Assembly (NCBI GenBank): GCA_003567685.1
Contig: PWYW01000037.1
Span: forward strand, 1-59,431
Reading direction: 5' to 3'
Length of the DNA: 59,431 nucleotides
DNA from: Gammaproteobacteria bacterium
GTDB taxonomy: Bacteria > Pseudomonadota > Gammaproteobacteria > Xanthomonadales > Wenzhouxiangellaceae
Position 1 is the first letter of the stretch. Each line of letters opens with the position of its first letter. The notes below the pieces were generated by a model. The model was not told the origin of the DNA. It did no database searches and saw only the letters and a program-made list of their open reading frames with translations. Positions 15,536 through 36,603 of the stretch are shown in pieces. Position numbers and translations under genes: made by a program.

Positions 15536-15744
15536 GGCGGCGAGAGGTGCCGGCTGCTGGCAAGCGCTGGCGCTATCGGCGGTGTCGATTCCGCGAATTC
15601 AAAGGAGCCTGAGTGCCAATGAATTCCATTACGGCTAGTAAGGTTCCGTGATTTCCGGCTGGGTCCCGGGTGCCTGAAACAGCTGAAACTAAGTGCCCGC
15701 CGCCGCGCGCCAGCGCTCGCCATCAGCCAACACCACTCCCCGTT
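15536..15744. repeat. Composite element copy A, part E1 (38-bp inverted repeat)
   Basis: Arms 15536-15573 and 15707-15744 pair at 30 of 38 positions. The left arm begins GGCGGCGAGAGGTGCCGG and the right arm ends CACCACTCCCCGTT. The same arms bound copies B (19183-19397) and C (31378-31454). No credible ORF lies inside. Confidence 0.8.
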
Positions 15745-15796
15745 GACGGTTAAGGGGAAAGGGCGGGCTTGGCTCCCTGCGATCTCTGAGCCTGCT

Positions 15797-16272
15797 GCAT
15801 CGGGGGGCTAGTGGGCCACACGGTGAATTCGATAACGCTCAGAGCCACTGTGCTGGTACGAATCAAGGCGCGTTCCGCAGGAAATGGCAAGCCCTTTCCA
15901 AGGAACGCAACGCCGAGTCGTGCCAGCACAGTGGCTCCCGGAGGGCCGCCGCACAAGCGCCGTGGGCGGCGTTCCGCTCGCTTGAATTGGCGACGGCCAG
16001 TCCTGCGCTCGCGCGCCTTGCCCACAACGCTTGTGCGACGGCTGAGTGTTATCGAATTCACCGTGTGGCCCACTGGGTGTTTCGGGCCGGCCGGGGCGCG
16101 GACGCTTTCAGGAAGCCCTCAGCTTCCATCCGCTGGATGAAAGCTCAATGAGGTCGCGAAACCGTCTGCTCTGAAGGTGTGATCTCGAGGTCACCCAAGC
16201 TCCCGTGAGCCTGCTCCTGGCAAGCCAGCCGAACGCCTCGGTCGGCCCGAAGCACCTGGCGCCACCGGATGC
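15797..16272. repeat. Composite element copy A, part E2, interrupted by the cloverleaf element
   Basis: The left arm begins TGCATCGGG (15797-15805) and resumes at ~16077 as GGGTGTTTCGGGCCGGCCGG then GGCGCGGACGC, matching E2 of copy B. The right arm (16239-16272) matches the copy B right arm at 26 of 34 positions. A smaller hairpin (GCTTTCA...TGAAAGC, with GGAAG/CTTCC inside) lies at ~16108-16143. Confidence 0.65.
15808..16076. repeat. 269-bp three-way-junction (cloverleaf) element E3
   Basis: Outer stem: 15810-15842 against 16042-16074, 32 of 33 pairs, extendable to 15808/16076. Stem 2: 15843-15861 against 15918-15936, 18 of 19 plus one G-U, with further nested pairs GCGTTCC/GGAACGC, GGAAA/TTTCC and GGC/GCC. 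Stem 3: 15946-15959 against 16028-16041, 13 of 14, with GTGGGC/GCCCAC inside. Stem 2 begins immediately after the outer arm. There is no transposase. It could be a MITE-like insertion or the template of a structured RNA. Confidence 0.8.
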
Positions 16273-16407
16273 TCGGAGTCCTCTACAGGCACCAAATTTC
16301 CGGACTGATTTCATCGGATACGTGGCCATCGCCATGGCTGAGTTTTCGGCTAAATCAGGTAAGCCGATAGGATCGGGTCGAGAGTAGGCGGGGTTTTCGG
16401 GCGCCGA
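16273..16407. other. Spacer downstream of suhB
   Basis: No gene or clear terminator seen. A weak hairpin (CTGAGTTTT...AATCAG) lies around 16337-16358. Confidence 0.3.
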
Positions 16408-17235
16408 TCAGCGCCCGTGGGTCAGACGCTCGCGCATGCCTTCGCTGACGTGGGGTTCGATGGCGTGGCGCAGCGGGGTGATCAGCTTGAACGGTGCGGC
16501 GACGATGTGACCGGTGTCCAGCCATTTTTCGCCGCCAATCACGTCCATCACCACGCCGCCGGCCTCCTGAACCATCAGCGCGCCAGCGGCGATGTCCCAG
16601 GGCTGAAGATTCAGCTCGAAGTAGGCATCCAGCCGGCCGCAGGCTACGTAGGCCAGGTCCAGCGAGGCGGTGCCGGCGCGGCGAATGTCCTCGACCTTGT
16701 CAAATACCGACTCGAACATTGCCTGGTAGGCCGGCATCAGGCGGCGGCTGCGGAAGGGGAAGGCGGTGGCGACCAGCGCGCCCGACAAATCCTTGCGCCC
16801 GGTTACGCGCACGCGCTGGTTGTTGAGGAAAGCGCCCATGCCGCGGCTGGCCCAGAACAGCTCTTCCCGAAGCGGGTCGTAAATCACGCCGTGCTCGATG
16901 CGGCCGTTGATGGCCAGGGCAATCGAGACCGAGAAGTGCGGGAAGCCGTGCAGGTAATTGCTGGTGCCGTCCAGCGGGTCAATGATCCACTGGTATTCGC
17001 TCTCGCCAATCAGCCCGCCTTCTTCGCCGAGGATGGCATGGCCGCGATGGTGCCTGAGAATGTGCTCGCGAATGGCCTGCTCGCAGGCCCGGTCGACGTC
17101 GGTTACGTAGTCGTGGCGGGCCTTGCGCTCAACCGGAATGCCTTCCAGTCGATGGCGGAATTTCAGCATCAGGTCGCCGGCCTTGCGGGCGGCCTCGGAG
17201 GCAATATTGATGTACGGATTGGTCACGGGCAACAC
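16408..17235 (-). CDS. suhB: Inositol monophosphatase family protein
   Basis: 275 residues. The IMPase metal-binding motifs are present in order: GEEGG (~72), WIIDPLDGTSNYLHG (~85-99) and WDIAAGALMVQEAGG (~210-224). SuhB hydrolyses inositol phosphates and, in E. coli, also joins the rRNA antitermination complex. The start is uncertain: GTG at 17235 is followed by TTG, and a TATCCT -10-like hexamer lies ~28 nt upstream on this strand. It is divergent from trmJ, an adjacency shared with E. coli. Confidence 0.94.
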   Translation of the reverse strand: MLPVTNPYINIASEAARKAGDLMLKFRHRLEGIPVERKARHDYVTDVDRACEQAIREHILRHHRGHAILGEEGGLIGESEYQWIIDPLDGTSNYLHGFPHFSVSIALAINGRIEHGVIYDPLREELFWASRGMGAFLNNQRVRVTGRKDLSGALVATAFPFRSRRLMPAYQAMFESVFDKVEDIRRAGTASLDLAYVACGRLDAYFELNLQPWDIAAGALMVQEAGGVVMDVIGGEKWLDTGHIVAAPFKLITPLRHAIEPHVSEGMRERLTHGR

Positions 17236-17294
17236 AGCAAAAGAAGCAACATCGCCTAGGATAAAGGATTTCCTTGGCGCGAATCGCTTGCGGA

Positions 17295-17300
17295 TAAAAT
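17295..17300 (+). promoter_or_regulatory. Predicted -10 (TAAAAT) of a leaderless trmJ transcript
   Basis: TAAAAT begins exactly 12 nt before the trmJ ATG at 17307. A possible -35 TTGGCG (17274-17279) has a short 15-bp spacer. Confidence 0.55.
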
Positions 17301-17306
17301 GCAGGC

Positions 17307-18059
17307 ATGAACAATCCTCTCGATTACATCCGCATCGTGCTGGTCGGCACCAGTCATCCCGGCAATATCGGCTCCACCGCCCGGGCCATGAAAGTGATGG
17401 GCCTGAGCAAGCTGGTGCTGGTCGCCCCCGAAGCCCAGTTCCCCAGTTCGCGGGCCACCGCCCTGGCCACCAGCGCCGATGACCTGCTGCAGTCGGCCGT
17501 GGTGGTCGACCATCTGATCGAAGCCATCAACGGCTGCGGCCTGGTGCTGGGAACGACGGCGCGCCCGCGTTCGCTGCCGTTGCCGGTACTCGACCCGCGC
17601 ACTGCCGGCCTGCGTACCCTGACCGAGGCCAGCCAGCACGAGGTGGCCGTGGTGTTCGGGCGGGAAAGCTCCGGTCTCACCAACGAAGAGACACGGCTCT
17701 GCCACCACATCATCAATATTCCGACCAGCCAGGAGTACCACTCGCTGAACCTGGCCCAGGCCGTTCAGGTGGTGTGCTACGAGTTGCACATGGCTGCCCT
17801 TGGCGAGATGCCCGGCGAAGTGGCCCCGCCGGACTGGCAGCCGGAACCGCCCGAGCGCGTCGAGTTCTACTACCAGCGCCTGGAACACGTGCTGAAAACC
17901 ATCGGCTTTTTGAACCCCGACCAGCCCAAGCGGCTGATGCAGCGACTGCGCCGGCTCTATCAGCGCGCGCGGCCGGACGAGAACGAGCTGAACATTCTCA
18001 ATGGCATCCTGTCGGCGACGCTGGAGGCAGCCCGTGAGCGACCCGACAAAGACCAGTGA
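17307..18059 (+). CDS. trmJ: tRNA (cytidine/uridine-2'-O-)-methyltransferase TrmJ
   Basis: 250 residues. SPOUT-fold motifs: IRIVLVGTSHPGNIGSTARA (motif 1), VAVVFGRESSGLTNEE (motif 2) and EYHSLNLAQAVQVVCYEL (motif 3, in the knot). The C-terminal ~80 residues form the extension typical of TrmJ. It methylates the 2'-O of residue 32 in several tRNAs using SAM. The end overlaps the next gene by 26 nt. Confidence 0.95.
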   Translation: MNNPLDYIRIVLVGTSHPGNIGSTARAMKVMGLSKLVLVAPEAQFPSSRATALATSADDLLQSAVVVDHLIEAINGCGLVLGTTARPRSLPLPVLDPRTAGLRTLTEASQHEVAVVFGRESSGLTNEETRLCHHIINIPTSQEYHSLNLAQAVQVVCYELHMAALGEMPGEVAPPDWQPEPPERVEFYYQRLEHVLKTIGFLNPDQPKRLMQRLRRLYQRARPDENELNILNGILSATLEAARERPDKDQ

Positions 18060-18402
18060 GCCGGGGCCGGACGAGCGTTTCCAGCGCGTCTGGGACGTGG
18101 TCGAAGGCATTCCGCCTGGCTGCGTGCTGAATTACGGCGAAGTGGCCCGACTGGCCGGTTATCCGGGCCGGGCACGCATGGTGGGCAGGGCCCTGGGCCG
18201 CGCCCCGAAAAGCCGCCCCTTGCCCTGGCACCGGGTGGTCAATGCCCAGGGCCAGATCAGCTTCCCGCCCGACAGCCGCCGCCATCAGCGCCAGCGCGAA
18301 CTGCTGGAAGCCGAAGGCGTGGAGTTCGTCAATGACACGATCGATCTAGAGCAGCACAGTCCCGAACAGGCAGTCGATCGCCTGCTCTGGGGGCCAGAGT
18401 GA
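18034..18402 (+). CDS. Alkyltransferase-like protein (Atl), MGMT family
   Basis: 122 residues from GTG 18034. It matches the C-terminal domain of O6-alkylguanine-DNA alkyltransferase: GCVLNYGEVARLAG (HTH) and the active-site region PWHRVV. The acceptor cysteine of the PCHRV motif is tryptophan here, which defines Atl proteins. They bind alkylated bases and hand them to nucleotide excision repair instead of removing the alkyl group. The start lies inside trmJ, suggesting co-translation. Confidence 0.88.
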   Translation: MSDPTKTSEPGPDERFQRVWDVVEGIPPGCVLNYGEVARLAGYPGRARMVGRALGRAPKSRPLPWHRVVNAQGQISFPPDSRRHQRQRELLEAEGVEFVNDTIDLEQHSPEQAVDRLLWGPE

Positions 18403-18418
18403 CTGGCCTGGATAATTC

Positions 18419-19156
18419 ATGAAAGGCCTGTTCGGCAAGCGCCGCGCCACCGTGGACATCGCCCCAAACGTCCTCCAGCGCGTGCTTGATCGCTTCCCGG
18501 CACTGGCCGCGGAATCGTCATCGGCACTGGCCGAAACGGCGTCGGAACTGCTGGCCAGCAAGACCTTCCTGAGTGCCGATGGTTTCGAACCCGATCTGGA
18601 CGATTGCCTGGCCGTGGCGCTGCTGGCGGCGCAACCCATTGTGCAGCTGGGCACCCATTGGTACCGCGGCTTCCAGACCTTCATCCTCTACCCGGGCGAG
18701 TTTGTGGCCGACTTGCAGGAGATGGACGAATTCGGCCTGGTCCACGAAGGCGAAGAAGTGCGCGCCGGCGAAGCCTGGGCCCATGGCCCGGTGGTGCTGG
18801 CCATGGACGAGGTCTGGGCCTCCGGCCAGGGCGAAGGCTACAACGTGGTGGCCCACGAGCTGGCTCATCAGATTGATCAGGCCAATGGCGACATGGACGG
18901 TTTTCCGCCGCTGCATCGCGACATGGACCGAGCCCGCTGGACCGACGTCTTCAGCCAGGCCTGGCAGCGTCTCAACGCGCAGCTTGATCAGGGCCTGGAA
19001 CCCGACCTGGACCCTTACGCCGCGGAATCACCGGCCGAATTTTTCGCCGTTGTCACCGAACTGTACTTCGACGTGCCCGACTGGATGGCCGAGGTCCATC
19101 CGGCCCTGCACCAGCAACTGCAGCGTTTCTACCGGCCGGATATCAGCCCCCTCTGA
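18419..19156 (+). CDS. M90-family zinc peptidase (MtfA-like)
   Basis: 245 residues. The zinc motif is HELAHQIDQANGDMDG, matching the HExxH and downstream Asp/Gly pattern of MtfA. LFGKRR near the start and AESPAEFFAVVTELYF near the end are also typical. In E. coli MtfA binds the glucose repressor Mlc and so affects PTS expression; whether that holds here is unknown. No signal peptide. It follows atl by 16 nt. It is also the last gene before repeat island B. Confidence 0.9.
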   Translation: MKGLFGKRRATVDIAPNVLQRVLDRFPALAAESSSALAETASELLASKTFLSADGFEPDLDDCLAVALLAAQPIVQLGTHWYRGFQTFILYPGEFVADLQEMDEFGLVHEGEEVRAGEAWAHGPVVLAMDEVWASGQGEGYNVVAHELAHQIDQANGDMDGFPPLHRDMDRARWTDVFSQAWQRLNAQLDQGLEPDLDPYAAESPAEFFAVVTELYFDVPDWMAEVHPALHQQLQRFYRPDISPL

Positions 19157-19182
19157 GTGCTCGGTGGCGGGGTTTGGTGCAA

Positions 19183-19397
19183 GGCGGCGAGTGGTGTCGC
19201 CTCCTGGTGACGCCAGCGTCAGATCGGCCTGGTCGATGGCCGCGGGTTTCCGGGAGCTTCGCGGGCGGTTGAGTTTGCACGGGCATGGGCGGCCCTTTTG
19301 CCAGTGCGTCTGCTCGGCGCCTGTCTGATGGTCGCTGCGGGTTTGCGGGCTGCCGCCGCGACGCTGGCGTCACCAGCAGGCAACACGACTCCCCGCT
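19183..19397. repeat. Composite element copy B, part E1
   Basis: Arms 19183-19220 and 19360-19397 pair at 33 of 38 positions; the inner ends GACGCCAGCGTC / GACGCTGGCGTC are near-perfect. Same arm sequences as copies A and C. Confidence 0.82.
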
Positions 19398-19447
19398 GAG
19401 TGCTCGGTGGTGGCCGAAGGTCTTTTTTCAGGAACCCTCAATTTACT

Positions 19448-19770
19448 TGCATCGGGTGCTGTTGGGTGGGGCGAGCTGGCCGGGGCGCGGACGCTGCAGC
19501 AATGTCAGCAGCCGCTCTCGACTGCCATGGGCCCATGCGGACAACGCGATTGCCAGCGAGTCCTGGATGATTAGTCTTGCGACACTCGGCGCCACCAAAC
19601 TTGCAGACTCTCCGAAGTCGATCGCCCCGGCCAGCCCGAACCACCCGGCAGCACCCGGTGCACGATGCTGGCCGAGCAGCAACGAACGATCGGCTGACTC
19701 CAACGACTCTCCAGCATCGCTCAAACCGATCGCCCCGGCCAGCTCGAACCACCCGGCAGTGCCCGATGCA
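19448..19770. repeat. Composite element copy B, part E2 with a duplicated right arm
   Basis: The left arm 19448-19487 pairs with 19623-19662 (34 of 40) and equally with a second copy at 19731-19770 (34 of 40). The two right arms are direct repeats 108 bp apart. The element ends 70 nt before dapE. Confidence 0.78.
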
Positions 19771-19827
19771 CGATGTCAGCTAGAAGCACTCGCGCCCGCA
19801 ATCGCAACACCACCCGCGCGAACCCGT

Positions 19828-19833
19828 TAATCT
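19828..19833 (+). promoter_or_regulatory. Predicted -10 (TAATCT) of a leaderless dapE transcript
   Basis: Begins exactly 12 nt before the ATG at 19840. It lies just downstream of the E2 right arm, as the equivalent hexamer does at 31815. Confidence 0.5.
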
Positions 19834-19839
19834 ATCGCC

Positions 19840-21000
19840 ATGGCGACAACAACCCATTCCAAGGTGCGCGACCTCGCGCAAACCCTGATTGCCCGGCGCT
19901 CCGTCACCCCGGAAGACGCCGGCTGCCTCGAGCTCATCGGCGAACGACTGCGCCAGGCCGGCATGAGCCTGCAGCGCATCGACCGCGGTGGCGTCAGCAA
20001 CCTGTTTGCCCATCATGGCCGGGGCGCGCCGCACCTGCTGCTGCTCGGGCATACCGACGTCGTTCCGCCAGGGCCGGAAAGCGCCTGGCAAACACCCCCC
20101 TTCGAACCCACGGAGGTTGGCGGCGAATTGATCGGACGCGGCGCGGCCGACATGAAATCCTCAGTGGCGGCCTTCGTGGTGGCCCTGGAGCAATACCTGG
20201 CCGACCATCCCGACCACCCCGGCACCGTCTCGCTGCTGCTCACTTCCGATGAAGAAGGCCCGGCCGACCATGGGGTGCGCATTGTTGTGCCGGAGCTGCA
20301 GCAGCAAGGCCTGTTGCCGGATGCCTGCCTGGTCGGCGAGCCGTCCAGCCTGAAAAGTCTGGGTGACAACCTGCGCATTGGTCGACGCGGCAGCATCCAG
20401 GCCCGCCTGAGTATTCGTGGCCGCCAGGGCCATACGGCCTATGCCGACCCGGCCGACAACCCGGTTCACCGCGCTGGCGCGCTGCTGGCGGCCCTCGGTC
20501 AGCTGGATTTCGACGACGGCGACGACTATTTTCCGCCCACCCGATTGCAGATTTCCAACGTCCAGGCCGGCACCGGTGCCGAAAACGTCACTCCCGGCGA
20601 GCTGGTGGTGCTGTTCAATCTGCGCAACAACCCCAACAGCACCGCTGATGTGCTTGAGGCCCGCTTGCGAGAACTGATTGACCAGCACCAGCCCGGTGAC
20701 TGGACGCTGGACTGGCGCGTGTCGGGCGAGCCTTTCGGGCCGGCGACGGGCGCGCTGCCCGCCATCGCAGCGGAAGTCTGTCGTCAGCAATTGGGCGTGA
20801 GCGCGCGCCTGGATACCGGCGGCGGCACCTCGGACGGGCGATTTTTTGGTCCCCTGGGTATTCCGGTGGTTGAACTGGGCCCGGTCAATGCCACTATCCA
20901 TCAGGTGGATGAGCGTATCAACCTGAACGACCTGGACGCCTTGCCCGGTCTCTATCAGGCCATCATCGAAGCCTTTCTGGCCCAATCGGAGCCCGGCTGA
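19840..21000 (+). CDS. dapE: Succinyl-diaminopimelate desuccinylase
   Basis: 386 residues, M20 metallopeptidase family. Metal and catalytic residues: H71 and D73 in GHTDVVPPG, D104 in GRGAADMK, E138/E139 in TSDEEGPADHG, and TGGGTSDGRFFG near the C-terminus. A dimerisation (lid) domain lies at ~185-295. It makes LL-diaminopimelate for lysine and peptidoglycan. M20 enzymes of other specificity are similar, but the match to DapE motifs is close. It is followed by ftsB after 4 nt. Confidence 0.93.
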   Translation: MATTTHSKVRDLAQTLIARRSVTPEDAGCLELIGERLRQAGMSLQRIDRGGVSNLFAHHGRGAPHLLLLGHTDVVPPGPESAWQTPPFEPTEVGGELIGRGAADMKSSVAAFVVALEQYLADHPDHPGTVSLLLTSDEEGPADHGVRIVVPELQQQGLLPDACLVGEPSSLKSLGDNLRIGRRGSIQARLSIRGRQGHTAYADPADNPVHRAGALLAALGQLDFDDGDDYFPPTRLQISNVQAGTGAENVTPGELVVLFNLRNNPNSTADVLEARLRELIDQHQPGDWTLDWRVSGEPFGPATGALPAIAAEVCRQQLGVSARLDTGGGTSDGRFFGPLGIPVVELGPVNATIHQVDERINLNDLDALPGLYQAIIEAFLAQSEPG

Positions 21001-21004
21001 GGCC

Positions 21005-21280
21005 ATGCGTATCATCCTGGCCATCCTGGTGGTGCTGTTGCTGCTGGCTCAGTGGCGGCTGTGGCAGGACGTACGCGAGGTGGGCAATCTGCGCGAGCTG
21101 GTCAGCCAGCAGCAGGAAGACAATCGCCAGCTGATGCAGCGCAACGACGACCTGGCCGCCGAAGTCGAGGATTTGCGCGCCGGCCTGGCGGCCATCGAAG
21201 AACGGGCGCGGGCCGAGCTTGGCCTGATCGGTGAAGACGAAGAGTTTTTCCTGATCGTCGATCCGGAATACATCGACTGA
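21005..21280 (+). CDS. ftsB: Cell division protein FtsB
   Basis: 91 residues. A single membrane segment (3-20) is followed by a periplasmic coiled coil (~25-65) and the conserved RARAELGLI segment. It forms the FtsQLB complex that licenses septal peptidoglycan synthesis. ftsB usually sits upstream of ispD; here it is coupled to dapE, another peptidoglycan-linked gene, and no ispD follows. Confidence 0.9.
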   Translation: MRIILAILVVLLLLAQWRLWQDVREVGNLRELVSQQQEDNRQLMQRNDDLAAEVEDLRAGLAAIEERARAELGLIGEDEEFFLIVDPEYID

Positions 21281-21590
21281 TCCTCGATGACTGAAGGCGC
21301 TATTAACCCAGCAACGAAATACCGACGGCATTCGTTGCGCGGCATTTGCGGCACATGTCCGTGCAGGCCTTCGCTCAAAGGTTCCGGCCGTTCCGGCCGG
21401 GCATTCACGCAGCAATCCATTTGATTGCCGCGTTGATAACACGCTGTATCAGAAAGGATATGGGGTCTTTACAAGTTCTTTCAGAAAACTTTCAGGGCTT
21501 TTCCATGGTGGTTGTCTGCCAGTTGCGAGACAGTAAGGTTGCGGCCGAAGTTCTCGGCTACCACCAGAGTCAATCGCGAAGGAGATCGCC
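21281..21590. other. Intergenic region before the secreted protein
   Basis: Contains CCGGCCGTTCCGGCCGG (21388-21404), a short palindrome that could act as a terminator stem without a T-tract. The SD GAAGGAGA for the next gene is at its right end. No ORF supported. The promoter is not obvious. Confidence 0.4.
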
Positions 21591-22046
21591 ATGTTGAATG
21601 TCAAGAAAACACGCTTATCGCTGCGCCATCTGGCAGCCTGCCTGATGGTTCTTGGGTTGTTGGCCGCTGCCAGCAATGTCCAGGGGCAGCGTTTGCCCAC
21701 CACTTCACCGGGGCCGGATGCCGCCGTTATCGTCGGAACGCCCGGCAAGACCACCCAGGACCTGTTCAGCGTTCGCTTTGTCGGCATTGATGGTCGCAAT
21801 ATTCAGGCGCGTGAAATCATGTGGCTGGAGCCCGGCCGCTACGAGTTGCGCGTGCTGGTCAACGCCAACTTCAGCCGCATGGGGCCGCAGCGACGCCCGT
21901 CGCGCGAAGCCCGTCAGGCCGAACGGACCATCGAAGTCGAAATCGAGGCTGGAAAGCGATATCACATCCGTGCTCGCTACAATCGCGAAGAGCGCGGTTC
22001 GGATGACCCGTACAACATCATCGTCTGGAAAGTCGAAGAGGTATGA
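21591..22046 (+). CDS. Small secreted protein of unknown function
   Basis: 151 residues. The signal peptide covers about 1-33, with a hydrophobic core CLMVLGLLAA and likely cleavage after VQG. The mature part is beta-rich, with LEPGRYELRVLV and EIEAGKRYHIRARYN, a pattern seen in small periplasmic beta-sandwich proteins. I do not recognise a named family. It has a strong SD (AAGGAG). Its stop overlaps the ATG of the next gene (ATGA), pairing it with a membrane-bound regulator. Confidence 0.78.
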   Translation: MLNVKKTRLSLRHLAACLMVLGLLAAASNVQGQRLPTTSPGPDAAVIVGTPGKTTQDLFSVRFVGIDGRNIQAREIMWLEPGRYELRVLVNANFSRMGPQRRPSREARQAERTIEVEIEAGKRYHIRARYNREERGSDDPYNIIVWKVEEV

Positions 22047-23047
22047 GCCTGTATTTCGCCCACTGCCGGTTCAACCCGGCAGATGGCCAACTGGTCGCTG
22101 AGGACGGCAGTGGGCGAGTCGAGAAATTGCGACCGCAGGCCGCGCGCCTGCTTGAGTTCCTGATCGATAATGCCGATGAAGTGCTTGATCGGGAACGCCT
22201 GGCCGATGCCGTTTGGGCCGAAGGCCGGGTGGTCGATTTCGAGGCCGGCTTGGCGGCTTTGGTGCGCGAGTTGCGTCAGGCCTTCATTGCGGTCGGCGGC
22301 CAGGCCGAATGGATTGAAACCATCCCGAGGCGCGGCTACCGACTGAACCTGCCGCCCGAGCGCGACAGCAGCCATGCCGTGCCGCCGCCACCTTCCGACG
22401 AGCCCACCTTCAAGTTAGCCCAGAAAGCCCCACCGACCGAGGACAAGGCGCCGGCCAGTTCGCGTCCCGGCAAGCTACGCCGAAGCCAGCGCCAGCGCCT
22501 GGTGCTGGTGTTGAGCCTGGGCCTGCTGGCGGCCATCGTGCTGGGTTCGCTGCTGGCCCCGCAGCCGGCGGAATTGCCCACGGGCGAGCAAGCATCGCCC
22601 ACGCCGGCGCTCGCCATTCTGCCCTTCGATGTGCTGGCTGATCTGTCGGATCAGGCGATGGACGATGAGCGATTGCAGCTGGTGGTGGCCGATCGTCTGC
22701 TGGCTGCGCTTTGGCGCGAGTCGCCCGACGAGCTGACATTGATCGGCCGCGCCGCCCTTGGTCCCTATCGCGGGCGCGACGACGTCGCCCAGGCTGTGGC
22801 CGCTGACCTGGCTGTCGACCTGCTCATCGAAGGCGTAGTGCTGGCGGCTGGCAACAACGGGCTGAATGTCGAGGCCCGACTGCTCCACATGCCCCAAGGC
22901 AAGTTGCTTTGGTCCTCCCAAGTCCCGCTCGAAGCCGTCAGCGGCGATCATATTGAGCAGGCTGCTACTGACTTGGCCCGGGCCTTTGCCATGCAGTGGC
23001 CCCAACTGCGTTCAGGTCTTGTCGACGGCAACGACAGCGACAGCTGA
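22043..23047 (+). CDS. CadC/ToxR-like membrane winged-helix regulator
   Basis: 334 residues. The N-terminal OmpR/PhoB-type winged helix (1-~105) has LRPQAARLLEFLI, DRERLADAVW and the wing ETIPRRGYRL. A Pro/Lys-rich linker leads to one membrane segment (~153-173). The periplasmic domain (~185-330) contains LAILPFDVLAD and a duplicated helix-strand pattern like the TolB N-terminal-type domains often fused to such regulators. It is a one-component system that binds DNA while sensing the periplasm. The secreted partner upstream may be its target or ligand. Confidence 0.85.
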   Translation: MSLYFAHCRFNPADGQLVAEDGSGRVEKLRPQAARLLEFLIDNADEVLDRERLADAVWAEGRVVDFEAGLAALVRELRQAFIAVGGQAEWIETIPRRGYRLNLPPERDSSHAVPPPPSDEPTFKLAQKAPPTEDKAPASSRPGKLRRSQRQRLVLVLSLGLLAAIVLGSLLAPQPAELPTGEQASPTPALAILPFDVLADLSDQAMDDERLQLVVADRLLAALWRESPDELTLIGRAALGPYRGRDDVAQAVAADLAVDLLIEGVVLAAGNNGLNVEARLLHMPQGKLLWSSQVPLEAVSGDHIEQAATDLARAFAMQWPQLRSGLVDGNDSDS

Positions 23048-23052
23048 TCTGC

Positions 23053-23058
23053 GACAAT
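23053..23058 (+). promoter_or_regulatory. Predicted -10 (GACAAT) of a leaderless truD transcript
   Basis: Begins exactly 12 nt before the ATG at 23065. No convincing -35. Confidence 0.42.
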
Positions 23059-23064
23059 AGCAGC

Positions 23065-24084: not shown

Positions 24085-24087
24085 CCT

Positions 24088-24122
24088 CTCACCTTTCACC
24101 TTTCACCTTTCACCTTTCACCG
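24088..24122 (+). repeat. (CACCTTT)n heptamer tract before the FHA gene
   Basis: Four CACCTTT units plus a partial one end 9 nt before the FHA gene ATG. The last segment, CACCGCCTT, is shared exactly with the tract before 24676. Confidence 0.8.
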
Positions 24123-24130
24123 CCTTTAAC

Positions 24131-24538: not shown

Positions 24539-24540
24539 TT

Positions 24541-24675
24541 GGAGGTAAAAGGTAAGAGGTAAAAGGGTTCACCCGGCGACCAGACATAAGCGGGTGGCCT
24601 GCTATGCTCCTGCCCTGTACCTTTGACCCAAAATCCTTCACCTTTCACCTTTCACCTTTCACCGCCTTCATAACC
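24541..24675 (+). repeat. Inverse and direct heptamer tracts before the Cys/Met enzyme gene
   Basis: GGTAAAAGGTAAGAGGTAAAAG (24543-24564, the reverse-complement type) is followed by TTCACCTTTCACC... (24637-24663), leading into CACCGCCTTCATAACCATG. A TATGCT hexamer at 24603-24608 could be a -10. Confidence 0.7.
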
Positions 24676-25827
24676 ATGCCCCATAAACTTTCAACCCGCG
24701 TTATCCATGCCGGCCAGCAGCCGGATCCGTCGACCGGCGCCATCATGACGCCGATCTACACCACTTCGACCTATGTCCAGCGCAGCCCCGGCGACCACCA
24801 GGGTTACGAGTATTCGCGTTCGCACAACCCCACCCGCAAGGCCTGGGAAGCATGCATTGCCGATCTAGAAGGCGGCCGCCATGGTTTTGCCTACGGCTCC
24901 GGCATGGCCGCCATCGACTGCCTGTTGCACCTGCTCGAGCCCGGTGACCACGTGCTGGCCATGGACGATCTCTATGGCGGCACCTACCGCCTGTTCGAGA
25001 ACGTCCGCAAGCGCGCCTCCGGCCTGAGCTTCAGCTTCGAGAACCTGGCCGACCTGGACGCCGCGCGCGCCGCCATCACCGACAAGACGCGCATGATCTG
25101 GGTCGAAACGCCCACCAACCCCATGCTGCAGCTGGTCGACATCGCCGCCGTGGCCGAACTGGCCCGCGAAGCCGGCGCCTTGCTGGTGGTCGACAACACC
25201 TTCGCCACGCCCATGCTCCAGCAGCCCATCGCGCTGGGCGCCGACGTGGTGGTGCATTCGGTCACCAAGTACCTGAACGGCCACTCCGACATGGTCGGCG
25301 GCGCGCTGGTGGTCAAGGACGACGAACTGGGCGAAAAGATCGGCTACCTGCAGAACGCCTCGGGCGGCGTACAGGGCCCGTTCGATGCCTTCCTGGTGAT
25401 GCGCGGGGTCAAGACCCTGGCCCTTCGCATGAAAGCCCACTGCGAAAACGCCGGCAAGATCGCCGAATGGCTGACCACCCAGTCCAAGATCGAAAAAGTC
25501 ATTTATCCCGGCCTGGACAGCCACCCGCAAAAAGCCCTGGCCGAGAAACAAATGGCCGGCTTCGGCGGCATGGTCAGCTTCGACATCGGCGGCGACCTGG
25601 CCCGCGCCCGGCGCTTCCTGGAAAACACCCACCTGTTCGCCCTGGCTGAGTCACTGGGCGGCGTCGAATCCCTGGTCAACCACCCTGCCATCATGACCCA
25701 CGGCTCCGTCCCCAAACACCGCCGCGACGTTCTCGGTATCAGCGACAGCCTGATCCGCCTGTCGGTCGGCATCGAAGACGTCGACGACCTCATCGGCGAC
25801 CTGGAAACCGCTTTGAAAGCGGTGTGA
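24676..25827 (+). CDS. metB: Cystathionine gamma-synthase/lyase family PLP enzyme
   Basis: 383 residues, Cys/Met-metabolism fold. PLP lysine K198 in SVTKYLNGHSD; also YSRSHNPTR, YGSGMAAID, VETPTNPM and VVDNTFATP. The C-terminal GGVESLVNHPAIMTH is typical. It either condenses O-succinylhomoserine with cysteine or cleaves cystathionine; sequence alone does not separate gamma-synthase from gamma-lyase. Start ATG 24676 follows the repeat tract; the in-frame ATG at 24604 would translate the tract and is rejected. Confidence 0.88.
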   Translation: MPHKLSTRVIHAGQQPDPSTGAIMTPIYTTSTYVQRSPGDHQGYEYSRSHNPTRKAWEACIADLEGGRHGFAYGSGMAAIDCLLHLLEPGDHVLAMDDLYGGTYRLFENVRKRASGLSFSFENLADLDAARAAITDKTRMIWVETPTNPMLQLVDIAAVAELAREAGALLVVDNTFATPMLQQPIALGADVVVHSVTKYLNGHSDMVGGALVVKDDELGEKIGYLQNASGGVQGPFDAFLVMRGVKTLALRMKAHCENAGKIAEWLTTQSKIEKVIYPGLDSHPQKALAEKQMAGFGGMVSFDIGGDLARARRFLENTHLFALAESLGGVESLVNHPAIMTHGSVPKHRRDVLGISDSLIRLSVGIEDVDDLIGDLETALKAV

Positions 25828-25871
25828 TCTAAAGGCGGGGAGAGGGAAGGCGGGAGACGGGAGTCGGAGCT

Positions 25872-25937
25872 GTCGTCCCGGCCCGCCATCCTGTCGTCGA
25901 AGAACCGCGCAGCGGTATCCGGGATCTCAGACCCGCG
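25872..25937. repeat. GTCATCCCGG-type dispersed palindrome
   Basis: GTCGTCCCGG ... TATCCGGGATCTCAGAC: a degraded member of the family best seen at 49269-49505, between two genes. Confidence 0.6.
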
Positions 25938-25950
25938 GAATCACCAAGCC

Positions 25951-27267
25951 ATGCCAGCAGCCACCCAACCAAACTCGCCCCCAAGCGCGACCCCCACCCT
26001 CGACCAGGCCCTCCGGGTCTGGTGGCAGGTGGCTTTCCTGAGCTTTGGCGGCCCCGCGGCGCAAATTGCGGTCATGCAGCGGCTCATCGTCGATGAAAAG
26101 GGCTGGCTGGACCAGGCGCGCTTCAACCACGCGCTGAATTTCTGCATGCTATTGCCCGGGCCCGAAGCCCAGCAGCTGGCCACCTACATCGGCTGGTTGC
26201 TGCACGGCGTCCGAGGCGGGCTGCTGGCCGGAATCATCTTCGTGCTGCCGGGCGCGGTGCTGATGCTGGGCTTGAGCCTGGCCTACGTCACTGTCGGCCA
26301 GGTCGGGCTGGTCGAAGGCTTGCTGTTCGGCCTGAAATGTGCGGTGCTGGCCATTGTTGCCCAGGCGCTTTGGCGCATGGCCGGCAAGATCGTCCACGGC
26401 CGCGCGGCCATCGTGATCGCTATCGCCGCCTTCATCGCCATGTTCGTGTTCAACCTGGCCTTCCCGCTGGTGGTGCTGGGTGCCGGCCTGGCTGGCCTGT
26501 TGCTGTACGGCCGGGAACCGGCGGCTGCCGGTGATGCGGTCGAGCCGCGCCCGATGCAATGGCGCGCCTCGCTGCTTTGCCTGTTTGCCTGGTTGTTACC
26601 GCTGGTCGCCTTGCTGGCGTGGCTGGGGCGCGAATCGGTCTGGACTGAAATCGCCGGCTTCTTCAGCCTGATTGCCGTGGCCGGCTTTGGTGGAGCTTAT
26701 GCCGTGCTGGCCTGGGTAGCCCAGTTCGCCGCCGAAAGTCGTGACTGGGTAACAGCGGCTGAAATGCTCGACGGCCTGGGCCTGGCCGAAACCACGCCGG
26801 GCCCGCTGATCCTGGTCACCCAGTTTGTCGGCTTCCTGGCCGCCTGGCGTCACGATGCCGTACTGCACCCGCTGCTGGCCGGCAGCCTGGGTGGCATGCT
26901 CACCACCTGGGTAATGTTCGCCCCGTCATTCCTCTGGGTATTCCTGTTCGCCCCGCGCATCGAACAACTGCGCAACAGCCCGCGTATCGCCGGCGCCCTG
27001 CGTGGCATCACCGCCGCCGTGGTCGGCGTCATCGCCAACCTGGCCGTCTGGTTCGGCCTGCGCCTGCTGTTCGCCGACCAGCAAACCCTCGCTGCACCCG
27101 GTATTGAACTCGACTTGCCGGTTCTCGCCACCGTCGACCTCCTGGCCCTTGGCCTGACCGCGGTCGCCGCCGCGCTGCTGTTCCGACTGAAGTGGGGCCT
27201 ATACCCCCTGATCGGCACCATGGCCGGCCTTGGCGTCATCGCCGGCCTGATCGGCGTAATCCCCTGA
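25951..27267 (+). CDS. chrA: Chromate efflux transporter ChrA (CHR family, two-domain)
   Basis: 438 residues. Two homologous CHR domains (about 12-190 and 210-430). The first carries FLSFGGPAAQIAVMQ and LLPGPEAQQLATYIGW. The second carries FGGAYAVLAWVAQ and GLGLAETTPGPLILVTQFVGF. It exports chromate by using the proton gradient. It is followed by another GTCATCCCGG palindrome, not by chrB/chrF, so induction by chromate is unlikely to be local. Confidence 0.93.
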   Translation: MPAATQPNSPPSATPTLDQALRVWWQVAFLSFGGPAAQIAVMQRLIVDEKGWLDQARFNHALNFCMLLPGPEAQQLATYIGWLLHGVRGGLLAGIIFVLPGAVLMLGLSLAYVTVGQVGLVEGLLFGLKCAVLAIVAQALWRMAGKIVHGRAAIVIAIAAFIAMFVFNLAFPLVVLGAGLAGLLLYGREPAAAGDAVEPRPMQWRASLLCLFAWLLPLVALLAWLGRESVWTEIAGFFSLIAVAGFGGAYAVLAWVAQFAAESRDWVTAAEMLDGLGLAETTPGPLILVTQFVGFLAAWRHDAVLHPLLAGSLGGMLTTWVMFAPSFLWVFLFAPRIEQLRNSPRIAGALRGITAAVVGVIANLAVWFGLRLLFADQQTLAAPGIELDLPVLATVDLLALGLTAVAAALLFRLKWGLYPLIGTMAGLGVIAGLIGVIP

Positions 27268-27269
27268 AT

Positions 27270-27411
27270 GTCATCCCGGGATCGCGAAGCGATACTCGGG
27301 ACCCCAGACCGGCGGTTTTATTGGGGTTGATCGAAGGCTGGGTGCCTGAGATCCCGGCTCAAGGCCGGGATGACACGAAGCGTCTGCTCCCTTCTCCCTT
27401 CTCCCTTCTCC
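27270..27411. repeat. GTCATCCCGG palindrome plus a (CCCTTCT)n tract
   Basis: GTCATCCCGGGATCGCGAAG ... GGCTCAAGGCCGGGATGAC (to 27374), then CCCTTCTCCCTTCTCCCTTC (27389-27411). Both lie between the convergent chrA and GntP-type genes. Confidence 0.7.
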
Positions 27412-27417
27412 CCAAGA

Positions 27418-28731
27418 TCAAAGCCCGATCCAGAAAAGTCCCAAACACAACACCAAGCCCGCCAACGGCACCAGCACGGTCAAGGCTCCCATCGGGGCGT
27501 AGGCGGCGGCGTGGGTTTCCTTGCAAATGGCGCGGATGGTGGTGACGACGTAGCCGTTGTGCGGCAGAGAGTCGAGCGCGCCGGAGGAAATGGCGACGAC
27601 TCTGTGAAGCTGATCGGGGTCCACGCCCTGGTCCATGTAATGCGGGCCGAGAATGGGCAGGGCGATGGCCTGGCCGCCGGAGGCCGAGCCGGTCATGGCA
27701 GCAATGGCCGATACCGCCACGGCTGCCGAGAGCAGGCCCGAGCCGGGCAGGGCAGTCACCCACACCACCGCCGCATCGAAGGCCGGTGACACGCGCGCAA
27801 CGGTGCCAAAGCCCACGACCGCCGCGGTGTTACCAATGGCAATCAATGCACCGGTGCCGCCTTCGGTGAGGGCCTCGCCGGGCTTGTGCAGGTGACGCAG
27901 GTTGATCGCCGCCGCACCCAGGGTGCCGGCCAGCAGTGCGACGATCAGCGCCGAGGTGCCGAGCGCATCGTGGGTGGTGAAGGAAATTCCCAGCACCAGC
28001 AGAAGAGGAATCATGGCCAGTGCCGGGTGCGGCAGTTGGTCGCGTTCATCGTTCGGGTCATCGGCGCGCTCTTCAAAAAATTCGCCGCGCGCCACCGCCC
28101 GCCGCAGCATCCAGCGCAACCAGAGGTAGCCTGTCGTTGCCATGAAAATGGCCACCACCAGGCTGGCCTCCCAGGCTGCCAGCGGGCTGGTGCCCAGGTG
28201 CTCTACCGGAATCCAGTTCTGGATTTCCGGCGACCCGGCCGAGGTCATGGTGAAGGTCACCGAACCGAATGCCAGCGTCGCCGGAATGAAACGGCGCGGC
28301 AAGTTGGCGCCGCGGAACAAGGCCAGGGCCATCGGATAGACGGAGAAGGCCACCACGAACAGGCTTACCCCGCCATAGGTGAGCACCGCACAGGCGAGAA
28401 CAACGGCCAGGGCAGCGCGATCGGTGCCCAGCCGGGTGATGATCCAGCGCGATACGCTGTCGGCCCCGCCGGACGATTCCATCATCTTGCCGAACAGCGA
28501 GCCCAGCAGAAACACGAAAAACCACGAGGCGATAAAGCCGGTAAAGCCGTTCATGTACTGGGTGACCAGGTCCACGCCGCCTTCGGGCGCCATTGGTGGC
28601 AGCAGCGCCACGCCCGAGGTCAGGGCGACGATCAGCGCGCACAGCGGCGTGGCCACGAACAGGCTCATGCCGCGCATGGTCAGGACAATCAGCAGGGCCA
28701 GGCCGCCCAGCAAACCAATCAGGCTCAGCAT
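27418..28731 (-). CDS. GntP-family permease
   Basis: 437 residues, 12 or so hydrophobic segments. Matches gluconate/hydroxy-acid permeases: PLCALIVAL near the start, YGGVSLFVVAFSVYP, FTMTSAGSPEIQN, the later LPILGPHYMDQGV and the C-terminal LPHNGYVVTTI. It would take up a sugar acid or hydroxy acid with protons. ATG 28731 is preferred (GAGCGAG upstream); a TTG at 28746 is the alternative. Divergent from a TonB-dependent receptor with a palindrome between them, suggesting joint uptake of a substrate. Confidence 0.85.
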   Translation of the reverse strand: MLSLIGLLGGLALLIVLTMRGMSLFVATPLCALIVALTSGVALLPPMAPEGGVDLVTQYMNGFTGFIASWFFVFLLGSLFGKMMESSGGADSVSRWIITRLGTDRAALAVVLACAVLTYGGVSLFVVAFSVYPMALALFRGANLPRRFIPATLAFGSVTFTMTSAGSPEIQNWIPVEHLGTSPLAAWEASLVVAIFMATTGYLWLRWMLRRAVARGEFFEERADDPNDERDQLPHPALAMIPLLLVLGISFTTHDALGTSALIVALLAGTLGAAAINLRHLHKPGEALTEGGTGALIAIGNTAAVVGFGTVARVSPAFDAAVVWVTALPGSGLLSAAVAVSAIAAMTGSASGGQAIALPILGPHYMDQGVDPDQLHRVVAISSGALDSLPHNGYVVTTIRAICKETHAAAYAPMGALTVLVPLAGLVLCLGLFWIGL

Positions 28732-28795
28732 GCCGTTCTCGCTCAAAGGTGATGAAACAGGCGTCCATGTTCACCTCGGCCGGCGGCGGCGAGAA

Positions 28796-28820
28796 ACTGT
28801 ACCAAGGTACAAGTTACAGT
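28796..28820. promoter_or_regulatory. Operator-like palindromes between GntP permease and TonB receptor
   Basis: TGTACCAAGGTACA (28798-28811) is a perfect dyad. ACTGTA (28796-28801) and TACAGT (28815-28820) form a second dyad around it. Located in the only intergenic space between the two divergent genes. Confidence 0.5.
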
Positions 28821-28896
28821 CGCACCGGCCTGGCGCAAGCTGACCATCGAGAGGGATGCCCCTGCCGAAACAACCAACAAGAATCACGGAGCGCAC

Positions 28897-31272
28897 ATGA
28901 AAACTGCACGTCTTTCCGCACTCAGCCTGGCCATTGGCCTGGCCCTGTCCAGTGGCCTGGCCGCACAAACGGATCCAAATGACGACGAGCGCGCCGAGCG
29001 CGATCTTGCCGACACGCCCATTGACACGATTCAGGTGACAGCGCGCCGGCGCGAGGAATCGGCACTGGATGTTCCGATTTCACTGACGACCTTGTCGGGT
29101 CAGGAGCTTGACGAGGTGGGTGCCCAGGACATCACCTACCTGAAGCAGGTCGTGCCCAACACCACCCTGGAAGTGTCGCGCGGCACCAGCAACACGCTCA
29201 CCGCCTTTATCCGTGGCGTTGGCCAGCAGGATCCGGTCGCCGGCTTCGAGGCTGGCGTAGGGATCTACATTGATGATGTCTATCTGAACCGCCCACAGGG
29301 CGCGGTGCTGGATATCTACGATGTCGAGCGCATTGAAGTGCTGCGCGGCCCGCAGGGCACGCTGTATGGACGCAACACGATCGGCGGGGCCGTCAAATAC
29401 GTCACCCGCCGCCTGGGCAACGAGCCGGCCATGCGCATTCGCGGCAGCCTTGGCAGTTATTCGCAGCGCGACCTGATGGTCTCTGGTGAAACTCCGCTAT
29501 CCGACAGTGTCGCTATCGGCGGCGCCGTTGCGACGCTGAACCGCGATGGCTTTGGCACCAACCTGACCACCGGCGCCGACAATTACAACAAGGATGTCGT
29601 CGCCGCTCGCGCCAGCATCGAGTGGACACCCGGAGACGCCTGGTTTGTTCGCCTGGCGGGCGATTACTACGAGGACACCTCCAATCCGGTGGGTGGACAC
29701 CGCCTGATTCCGGGCCTGTTCTCGGGTGCGCCGGTGCTGGATAACGTGTTCGATTCGCGCGGCGGCCTGACCGGCGAAAACTTCACCGAGGCCTGGGGCC
29801 TGAGCCTGCTGGCCGAGTACGACATCAACAGCAACTGGCAATTCAAGAGCATCACCGCCTACCGCAATAACGAAAACACCCAGCAGATCGACTTCGACGC
29901 GCTGCCCGGCGTGGATGTCGACGTGGCTACCATCTACGACAGCGACCAGTTCAGCCAGGAATTCCAGCTCAACTACACGGCTGACCGGGTCAACGGTGTC
30001 ATGGGCTTTTACTATCTGGATGCCAACGCCTTCGGACCCTTTGATGTTCGTCTTTTCGAAACCGGTGAATTGATTGGCGCGCCGGGCCTGAACGCCTTCA
30101 CCAAGGGCGATGTGGATACCAGCAGCTGGTCGCTGTTCGCTGACTTCAGCTTTGACCTCGGTGCGTGGTTCGACATGGACACTGACCTGGAACTGTCGGT
30201 TGGTGGTCGCTACACCAGCGACAAGCGCTCGTCACGTGTACTGCGCCAGAACCTGCTGGGTCCTTCCGAGTTTTTTGGCGGCGACCCGATTGTCCTCGCT
30301 ACCACTTCCGATTTCGACGGCTCGGACACCTTCACCGAGTTCACTCCGCGCGTCAGCCTGGCCTGGAAACCGAACCCGGATCAGAATCTTTACGTGTCCT
30401 GGTCGCAGGGCTTCAAGGGTGGCGGTTTTGATCCCCGTGGCCTGACTACCCTGGCGCCAGGTACCGACGGCAACCCGCCCACCGACGATGAAATCTTCGA
30501 GTTCATGCGCTTCGCGCCGGAATTCGTCGACACCTATGAAATCGGCCTGAAATCGCGCTGGCTGGATGGCCGCGTCAACACCAGCCTGGCCTTCTTCTAC
30601 TCTGACTACACCGACATTCAAGTGCCGGGTTCAATTGGTGCCGACACGACCGGTGATGGCATTGCCGATACTTTCGCGGGTGTCACCACCAACGCTGGCT
30701 CGGCCACCATCAAGGGCTTCGAGTTCGAATCCACCGCGGTGCTTGGTCAGGACGTGTTTGCCGGCGGCGATGCCGTCAGCCTGGCGACCGCCGTGGGTTA
30801 CGTCGACGCGGGCTACGATGAGTTCATCACCGCCGTTACCAACCCGGCCACTGGTGAATCGGCACTGGAAGACGTGGCCGACCAGCGCGTTATCCAGAAC
30901 ACGCCCAAGTGGACTGCCCACGCTCGTCTGCGTTACGACATGCCGGTCGAGTGGTTTGGCACCGATGGTGACTTCTCCATCATCGGCGCCTGGTCCTACC
31001 GCTCCAAGACCAACCAGTTCGAGATTCCCTCGGATTTCCTCGATCAGCCGTCTTACTCGCTGTATGACCTGAGCTTCGTCTGGCGTCGCGCCGACAACCG
31101 CTACGAGATTGGCCTGCACGGCCGCAACTTGAGCGACCGTGAATACAAGGTCTCGGGCTATGCCTTCGCCACGCCAGACGGTACGGCTTCCACCCTGGGT
31201 CTGGAAGGCATCATGAACGCTTTCTACGGCCCGCCGCGCACCGTCACCCTGACCGGCCAGGTCAACTTCTGA
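28897..31272 (+). CDS. TonB-dependent outer-membrane receptor
   Basis: 791 residues. Signal peptide 1-24 (ALSLAIGLALSSGLAA). TonB box region DTIQVTARRREES at ~43-55. Plug domain with ISLTTLSGQELDEVGAQDI, RGVGQQDP and VLRGPQGTLYGRNTIGGAV. A 22-strand beta-barrel follows, ending in the C-terminal aromatic signature (VTLTGQVNF). It imports a scarce ligand across the outer membrane; the type resembles the large Xanthomonad/Sphingomonad receptor class. SD GGAG precedes the ATG. Confidence 0.95.
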   Translation: MKTARLSALSLAIGLALSSGLAAQTDPNDDERAERDLADTPIDTIQVTARRREESALDVPISLTTLSGQELDEVGAQDITYLKQVVPNTTLEVSRGTSNTLTAFIRGVGQQDPVAGFEAGVGIYIDDVYLNRPQGAVLDIYDVERIEVLRGPQGTLYGRNTIGGAVKYVTRRLGNEPAMRIRGSLGSYSQRDLMVSGETPLSDSVAIGGAVATLNRDGFGTNLTTGADNYNKDVVAARASIEWTPGDAWFVRLAGDYYEDTSNPVGGHRLIPGLFSGAPVLDNVFDSRGGLTGENFTEAWGLSLLAEYDINSNWQFKSITAYRNNENTQQIDFDALPGVDVDVATIYDSDQFSQEFQLNYTADRVNGVMGFYYLDANAFGPFDVRLFETGELIGAPGLNAFTKGDVDTSSWSLFADFSFDLGAWFDMDTDLELSVGGRYTSDKRSSRVLRQNLLGPSEFFGGDPIVLATTSDFDGSDTFTEFTPRVSLAWKPNPDQNLYVSWSQGFKGGGFDPRGLTTLAPGTDGNPPTDDEIFEFMRFAPEFVDTYEIGLKSRWLDGRVNTSLAFFYSDYTDIQVPGSIGADTTGDGIADTFAGVTTNAGSATIKGFEFESTAVLGQDVFAGGDAVSLATAVGYVDAGYDEFITAVTNPATGESALEDVADQRVIQNTPKWTAHARLRYDMPVEWFGTDGDFSIIGAWSYRSKTNQFEIPSDFLDQPSYSLYDLSFVWRRADNRYEIGLHGRNLSDREYKVSGYAFATPDGTASTLGLEGIMNAFYGPPRTVTLTGQVNF

Positions 31273-31297
31273 TCGAATCGGTCAACTACCGGACTCT

Positions 31298-31356
31298 CCC
31301 CGGTACCGGGGTGGTTGCAAAACACCGCAGCCACCCCGGACTTTTTGGTTCCGGGG
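31298..31356 (+). terminator. Structured 3' region after the TonB receptor, possible terminator
   Basis: CCCCGGTACCGGGG (31298-31311) is a perfect palindrome. CCCCGGA ... TCCGGGG (31334-31340 / 31350-31356) follows, with TTTTT in its loop. A pairing GGGGTGG/CCACCCC is an alternative fold. Confidence 0.4.
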
Positions 31357-31377
31357 ATTCTGGTGGTTGTGGTGGTT

Positions 31378-31454
31378 GGCGGCGAGAGGCGCCGGATGCA
31401 TTGGAGAGGCTGCCGCGCCCCAGTGCTCGACATCATCCAGCACGACTCCCCGCT
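31378..31454. repeat. Composite element copy C, part E1 (short form)
   Basis: Begins GGCGGCGAGAGGCGCCGG and ends GCACGACTCCCCGCT, the same termini as copies A and B, but only 77 bp long: the interior is deleted. Confidence 0.7.
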
Positions 31455-31583
31455 GAAGGTTGGGAGTTTTTGATCGAGATGCGGAAGGTCGTGGTGGTTT
31501 CAGTGCGCGCCAGCAGATTCCTCGGACGCGGCGGAAAACCCGCGCACGTTCGGCACCCCCCCTCCAAAAACCCTCAGCCTGTC

Positions 31584-31794
31584 GCATCGGGTGGTGTTGG
31601 CTGTGGCGGCGCGGAAGGGGCGCGGACGCAAACTCGAAAAAAGCAGCCCCCTGGCCTGGCAGGAACGCCAACAGAAGCAAGCCACCCTACAAACCCGGAA
31701 CCCACGCTGAAAAGCACCCCCATCCCCAGCGCCAGCAATCATTGTCCAAGCCGATCGCCCCGAACGCTCCGCCACAGCCGGCACCACCCGATGC
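31584..31794. repeat. Composite element copy C, part E2
   Basis: Arms 31584-31622 and 31756-31794 pair at 33 of 39 positions (GCATCGGGTGGTGTTGG against CCACCCGATGC and so on). The right arm ends 32 nt before the next gene. Confidence 0.8.
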
Positions 31795-31814
31795 CCGAAC
31801 CCTTCTACAACCCG

Positions 31815-36577: not shown

Positions 36578-36603
36578 GAAAGTGCACGTCTGGAAACTGG
36601 GAC

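Follow-up and report, generated by a model that had tools for sequence, protein, structure and literature searches.

At three sites of the window (the whole stretch of DNA analyzed, 59,431 nucleotides, which is contig C60 of a 2.74 Mb genome assembled in 107 contigs) we find a divergent pair of structured hairpins which, judged by its pattern of sequence change, is very probably under selection. The pair consists of two modules, E1 and E2, and is present at all three sites (A, B and C), the copies forming one family. Copy A is surrounded by a mobile element, almost certainly of the IS1595 type. An earlier note on this DNA had reported E1 followed by E2 at each site, and this order, the arms it described and its E1–E2 gaps of ~53, 51 and ~130 bp were all recovered. 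By speaking of two modules repeated on one strand it understated their relation: E1 and E2 turned out to be a single type of module in opposite orientations. The features are listed below, where R1 stands for a covariance model of E2 and TIR for terminal inverted repeat.

15481–16359, plus strand: copy A, a non-autonomous transposon, almost certainly IS1595-type, with E1, E2 and a nested insert N; its terminal repeats differ from the 22 fixed pattern bases at 2 and 3 positions
15481–15506, plus strand: left terminal inverted repeat of copy A, by TIR pattern match
16334–16359, minus strand: right terminal inverted repeat of copy A, by TIR pattern match
15534–15746, read on minus: E1 hairpin module of copy A (arms; the E2-trained R1 gives 57 bits on minus; z −5.8)
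15791–16282, plus strand: E2 hairpin module of copy A, left arm split by N (arm profiles 15791–15808, 16074–16106 and 16224–16282; R1 178 bits at 16052–16282, plus)
15810–16074, plus strand: nested palindromic insert N in copy A, 265 bp, with 33-bp outer arms (97%)
15842–15937 and 15945–16042: two hairpins inside N, enclosed by its outer arms
19174–19402, read on minus: E1 hairpin module of copy B, B-type (arms; fold; R1 52 bits on minus)
19445–19669, plus strand: E2 hairpin module of copy B (arms; fold; R1 135 bits)
19722–19777, plus strand: duplicated E2 right arm of copy B, 108 bp downstream of the first right arm
31373–31461, minus strand: shortened E1 hairpin of copy C (arm profiles: left arm 31373–31399, 16 bits; right arm 31412–31461, 41 bits)
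31578–31804, plus strand: E2 hairpin module of copy C (arms; fold; R1 148 bits)

The splitting of the E2 of copy A by N, the doubled E2 arm of copy B, the transposon ends of copy A at 15481 and 16359 and the identity of E1 as an inverted E2 are absent from the earlier note. Each module has a stem of ~39 bp, a loop of ~120 nt and C-rich flanks, full modules measuring about 205–235 nt. A seed search placed the E1 arms at 15538–15573/15707–15742 in copy A (83% of 36 paired) and 19184–19220/19360–19396 in copy B (89% of 37), and the E2 arms at 19448–19487/19623–19662 in copy B (85% of 40) and 31584–31622/31756–31794 in copy C (85% of 39); it also located the doubled right arm of B, at 19623–19662 and 19731–19770. 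RNA folding on the called strand was better than all 200 dinucleotide shuffles for four modules, namely E1 of A (z −5.8), E1 of B (−6.2), E2 of B (−7.3) and E2 of C (−5.6). The claim of an E1 in all three copies stands for A and B by their arms; in C, E1 is a shortened form that was missed by the seed search and by R1, was found by arm profiles only, and folds unremarkably relative to shuffles (z −1.8; 13/200 shuffles as good). The DNA fold of the N region (15780–16100) reached z −12, with 0/100 shuffles as good. No match to N, copy B or copy C70 was found in the plasmid collection, and none to copy C70 in the phage collection.

The E2 profile detected 27 of 30 E1 modules at ≥10 bits in inverted orientation, compared with 0/30 in the other orientation and 0/150 shuffles. 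Reciprocally, the E1 profile detected 14/36 E2 modules inverted, 0/36 in the other orientation and 0/180 shuffles, and in A, B and many other copies the R1 match to E1 is on the opposite strand. E1 is an inverted homologue of E2, and the unit is therefore two related hairpins reading outward from a shared centre. This layout prevails in other species, where 27 neighbouring module pairs comprise 23 divergent, 3 tandem and 1 convergent pair (the last 2.2 kb apart), and the divergent gaps measure 34–62 bp in 14/23, with a maximum of 310 bp. Of 121 R1 matches, 79 were retained, and the 74 longest of these, from other species, underlie the per-module counts. The 42 rows set aside repeat a module on its opposite strand with a lower score or, in a few cases, are partial or weak; they include L228 1009–1087, L333 1680–1830 and 1880–2034, and L337 1–132, and those of L333 would add tandem neighbours. 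The loose loop motif GGYACC..A..CC occurs in 39/74 of these modules, never on the other strand and in at most 6 in shuffles. Strand calls agree with the loop-motif search in 120/123 modules, with 2 ties and 1 against.

BLAST with the B, C and C70 copies as queries was used to collect the copies of the own genome, and the set comprises 29 places (three in the window) plus C25 and C26, i.e., 31. By reading, 29 of the 31 contain parts of both E1 and E2, E1 first; C38c and C26 contain E1 only. An extra arm fragment is present at three places (C30, C57 and C67), and at two further places, C14 and C43 (L183, L184), arm fragments lie next to a single terminal repeat. To follow the family across the order, R1 was run on 250 genomes with strict filters and at most nine candidates scored per genome, so that some positives were probably missed, within the genus too. 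Matches were obtained in 16 genomes, the own genome included, all of the (inferred) genus Wenzhouxiangella: 16/30 genomes of the genus versus 0/220 others in the order. A 27-base match (E 6e-5) lies in G038, a genome of another family. A search of all genome contigs for an exact 19-base pattern from E1 hit eight stretches; four belong to sister genomes (two of them Wenzhouxiangella MAGs, the third a Gammaproteobacteria MAG), and the other four, single and in unrelated bacteria, look like chance. A search of open-licence papers, a collection without most of the subscription journals, found no report of such repeats in Wenzhouxiangella.

Stem pairing was assessed in an alignment of 36 E2 sequences (5/41 E2 pairs with an interrupted or truncated left arm were left out) and one of 30 E1 sequences (from 34 pairs, less three that are short and the second of the left arms in L225). 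In E2, 93.5% of cells pair and 20/39 pairs show two-sided changes; in E1, the values are 85.5% and 16/37, with the caveat that related sequences can give such changes without structure. For both modules, 0/500 shuffles reach any pairing measure and slid stems score far lower. We consider site Y the stronger test, its sequences being absent from both alignments. In G009, G021 and G044 this site is flanked by one and the same convergent gene pair, whose proteins are 84–96% identical. Here 4 E1 and 7 E2 pairs have two-sided changes in two or more species without loss of pairing, except that 1 of these 11 is broken in the third. Counting against this, 9/45 and 8/39 columns in the stretch compared are unpaired in at least one of the three species. 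Changes on both sides of a stem at one orthologous position point to use in place.

The earlier note had named the lack of further genomic copies, the lack of compensatory substitutions and a match to an already named family as outcomes that would count against its element. Copies occur at about 30 places in the genome, and 36/76 stem pairs show two-sided changes. No Rfam family reaches the gathering score at the repeats; the single match in the whole window is a tRNA (59338–59411), away from them, and copy C70 at a lax threshold produced only four sub-threshold matches, all to microRNA precursor models.

The stem mismatches differ by strand. On the top strand, E2 stems contain 108 G-T and 13 A-C mismatches, E1 stems 13 and 98; without two fixed wobble pairs the ratios are 52:13 and 13:43, and other mismatch kinds number 78 (E2) and 63 (E1). 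At the two fixed positions G-T is found in 32/36 and 24/36 E2 modules and, on the other strand, in 28/30 and 27/30 E1 modules. Because wobble-type mismatches fall on the outward strand (top for E2, bottom for E1), each module appears fitted to outward-strand folding, a polarity that a mere DNA palindrome would not predict. The bias is weaker in other species (187 G-T versus 123 A-C; 42 modules for, 22 against, 10 ties), and whole-module folding energy is slightly contrary to it, the called strand being more stable in 40/98 modules (other species 23/74) and less stable in 58/98. On balance, selection probably acts at the level of a single strand, either RNA or ssDNA, and we infer that the selected molecule is RNA.

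The genomic position of the copies was analyzed with genes predicted by a home-made codon score, taking as background the distinct other neighbour pairs at the same 76 loci. A predicted gene is present on both sides of 63 of 84 copies or clusters; these genes are convergent in 24 cases, unidirectional in 34 and divergent in 5. Convergent pairs are enriched (24/63 versus 22/188 in the background, Fisher p 2e-5), and the difference for divergent pairs is not significant (5/63 versus 33/188, p 0.07); these p values are rough, since copies that share descent are not independent. By eye, solo modules had no clear orientation relative to neighbouring genes. An ordinary intrinsic terminator was rejected as a candidate, as T-runs of at least four are nearly absent after the stems (2/74 other-species modules on the called strand, 3/74 on the other). 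The outward-strand flanks of the same modules are C-rich (C>G in 61/74 and 59/74), and TCAG is enriched on the 5′ side (28/74; shuffles at most 13). These flanks, the TCAG enrichment and the scarcity of T-runs would be in keeping with Rho-type termination in which the hairpins protect the 3′ ends.

Our best guess, which we hold to have an even chance, is that E is a REP/CIR-like RNA hairpin pair acting at transcript ends, a function proposed from these features. The more specific proposition of a transcript-end function falls slightly short of an even chance. In this scenario, the pair would act in both directions: a transcript reading through from either side would first run into the centre, at its C-rich part, and next into the outward hairpin, by which its 3′ end would be marked or protected, through Rho-type termination plus trimming or through RNase processing.

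An unlikely alternative is that E is a REPIN-like non-autonomous ssDNA mobile element, moved by a strand-specific transposase, with its structure kept for mobility and gene ends being tolerated insertion sites. It would account for copies in 15 other species and for the arm arrays present in G005, and strand-specific wobble fits ssDNA as well as RNA. Copy C also points toward mobility. It fills the junction of a TonB-receptor gene and a histidine kinase gene, where the gap measures 554 bp in the own genome and, in 15 listed relatives, 89–176 bp (13 relatives) or 265 and 307 bp (two); both genes are in view in 19 relatives, the remaining four having gaps of about 155 to 500 bp, and R1 detected no module at the kinase site in 27 relatives' loci. 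Only C gave a clean empty site, since the gene order at A and B differs from that of relatives. However, by eye no insertion footprint was recognised at copy C, and the two-sided changes at site Y suggest use in place. A RAYT/Y1 transposase as the mover was rejected: PF01797 has 0 matches in the own genome, and its occurrence in 9/30 genus genomes, some of them incomplete, does not track that of E (5/16 E-bearing versus 4/14 other genomes).

Several copies occupy shared positions. At site X, both flanking genes are common to the own copy C27a and to G008, G019 and G021; the same holds at other sites for the own copy C39 and G042, and for G001 and G015. Neither C27a nor C39 has transposon ends. 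C27a is an own-type sequence at a site with far-diverged orthologues, as could arise by gene conversion or by a second insertion.

That the centre might be a bidirectional promoter for two outward small RNAs, each with one E hairpin, seems improbable to us. The divergent layout with its mostly short centre would suit such a promoter, as would the wobble tolerance on the outward strands and the conservation at site Y, where the centre is 83–90% identical, stems 67–95% and loops 52–76%. Site X argues against it, the centre there (G021 versus G008) being 82% identical with 14 gap columns and the loops 77–84%, so that the centre is no better kept; moreover, the centre can be up to 310 bp long and, by eye, the aligned centres have no common promoter-like box.

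Templated repair of quasi-palindromes, which would keep the palindromes tidy and so create false compensatory changes, is more doubtful still. Template switching does occur in DNA palindromes. It should restore Watson-Crick arms, yet the fixed G-T pairs persist in most copies and the wobble polarity flips with module orientation.

Flank alignment revealed common ends outside E1–E2, 26 bp long, inverted, and following the pattern CCTGATTACG-n3-AT-n-ACTCAGCCAT at both ends. At ≤3 mismatches the TIR pattern has 21 matches in the own genome and 0 for a backward control, and both ends reach this level in 7/29 own copies. Their flanking 8-mers are identical at 8/8 positions in C72, C106b, C55 and C97, at 7/8 in C70, at 6/8 in copy A (TACGCTGA / TAAGCCGA) and at 4/8 in C106a; an 8-bp target duplication is thus found for the family and is decayed in A. 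At least one end with ≤8/22 mismatches is present in 21/29 own copies, for which the chance level, from random stretches of the window, is about 3%. Copies B and C have no TIRs, their best windows (11–12/22 mismatches on each side) being at chance level. Many own copies, A among them, are bounded by IS1595-type ends, the best-kept ones with 8-bp target duplications.

In the sister genome G019, these ends delimit an element of 1,029 bp that has an 8/8 target duplication (TAGGTGTT) and encodes an IS1595-family transposase (PF12762 9e-32; NF033547 6.5e-59). Another 1,029-bp element with these ends occurs in G018, its protein 82% identical to that of G019 and its flanking 8-mers matching at 6/8. 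No match to the G019-type transposase was found in the own assembly, and no viral contig has the exact TIR pattern. PMC12561309 reports 8-bp repeats for an IS1595 relative, and PMC3852290 lists an ISHwa6-related MITE of H. walsbyi (165 bp, IR 25, DR 8); repeats of eight bases and a short non-autonomous relative are both on record for the IS1595 family. The non-autonomous IS1595-type element spread in the own genome with 8-bp target duplications, and its transposase would have to come from elsewhere. Of the two explanations raised in the earlier note, each holds in part: selected secondary structure is backed by the two-sided changes, and a palindromic mobile unit is right in that A sits in a mobile unit, but this unit is the larger IS1595-type element and not the E1–E2 island. 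That the island is merely the inside of a decaying IS1595-type MITE is very improbable, for although copy A and 20/28 other own copies keep a recognisable end, B and C have none, stems evolve by two-sided changes, and copies without TIRs in other species already contradict the idea, E1–E2 occurring without the transposon in sister species (200 bp on each side of 53 copies or clusters: 0 ends at ≤6 mismatches, 3 at 7–8).

The hairpin pair and its carrier can be combined into one account, which we offer tentatively: a genus-specific bidirectional regulatory element, made of two homologous long RNA hairpins under base-pair selection at convergent gene ends, was taken over and multiplied by a non-autonomous transposon in one species. 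If true, a structured element maintained by the host would here be spread by a transposon unrelated to it. For REP, ERIC and CIR, it has long been asked whether such palindromes between genes are selfish DNA or RNA parts used by the host. Here, the question becomes testable within one genus, which offers orthologous two-sided changes in three species, a strand told by wobble pairs, and recently moved transposon-borne copies.

Among known systems, copy A resembles IS1595-family MITEs such as the ISHwa6-related one of H. walsbyi, which share TIRs with an IS1595 element and have 8-bp direct repeats (PMC3852290); it differs in carrying an E1–E2 pair found independently in other species, and the nested N. 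Correia/NEMIS, ERIC and YPAL are likewise palindromic repeats that lie between genes and form stable stem-loops when transcribed; PMC2229807 describes them as small (~100–200 bp) single stem-loops, and E is a divergent pair. REPIN/BIME/REP sequences, as described in PMC3116915 and PMC3733652, share with E the units in opposite orientation, the single-strand hairpin, compensatory changes, G-T pairs in stems and a location between unidirectional and convergent genes; in the latter source, the REP authors read gene-end preference and G-T pairing as support for transcription. E agrees with REP in lying at gene ends and seldom between divergent genes (24 convergent, 34 unidirectional, 5 divergent). 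In contrast, the E module has ~205–235 nt and a 39-bp stem, not the 20–50 nt of REP palindromic units, and REP tags in the 74 other-species modules did not exceed shuffle maxima (5′ GTAG 1, CGTC 8; 3′ CTAC 20, for which shuffles give a mean of 13 and a maximum of 23, and GACG 3). Finally, the CerM-associated intergenic repeats (CIR) of Caulobacter and Brucella are intergenic and consist of two long inverted-repeat arms and a linker (PMC2229807), and E pairs likewise have two hairpin arms joined by a linker. The methylation site GANTC, exposed in a loop of CIR, is not clearly enriched in E loops (35/74 versus a shuffled mean of 23.6 and maximum of 37). The homology and inversion of its modules may set E apart from CIR, as does its gammaproteobacterial host.

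Element N, the insert that splits the left arm of hairpin module E2 in copy A, is a palindrome with a predicted fold of a three-way junction, and its own genome carries five near-complete copies and one partial copy.

15810-16074: element N, 265-bp palindrome; also in stretches L100, L104, L114, L118 and L119.

Four copies occupy an identical insertion spot within the E2 left arm, one of which, at the E1-E2 place C39, is inverted relative to the others. No target duplication was recognised at the element N copies.

The E2 right arm of copy B is repeated in tandem, which is a separate mode of growth; the spacing of the repeated arms is 108 bp in the window and ~85 bp in genome G005.

19623-19662 and 19731-19770: E2 right arm, tandem repeat in copy B; also in L212 and L214.

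In G013 (L079), short GGGTTCCGGGTTACGGG-type repeats adjoin an E2 copy (~1-175 and 470-500). Upstream of copy C, a terminator-like hairpin followed by T's, 3' of the TonB receptor gene, is still present (31306-31339).

The genes of an M90 and an M20 peptidase (16408-21000) adjoin copies A and B and differ in position from those of relatives; these repeats may have mediated a rearrangement. Elsewhere in the window lies a putative member of the MATCAP tyrosine carboxypeptidase family, as judged from its sequence.

35267-37765, minus strand: 832-aa bacterial protein, PF08014 match (2.5e-112).

Elements of 278-304 bp in G019, G012 and G013 (L169, L170, L174, L179) gave 0 BLAST matches to the E modules. 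Target duplications of 7/8 or 8/8 accompany them, and their ends are of the same type as the 26-bp terminal repeats bounding copy A and the 1,029-bp IS1595 element of G019.
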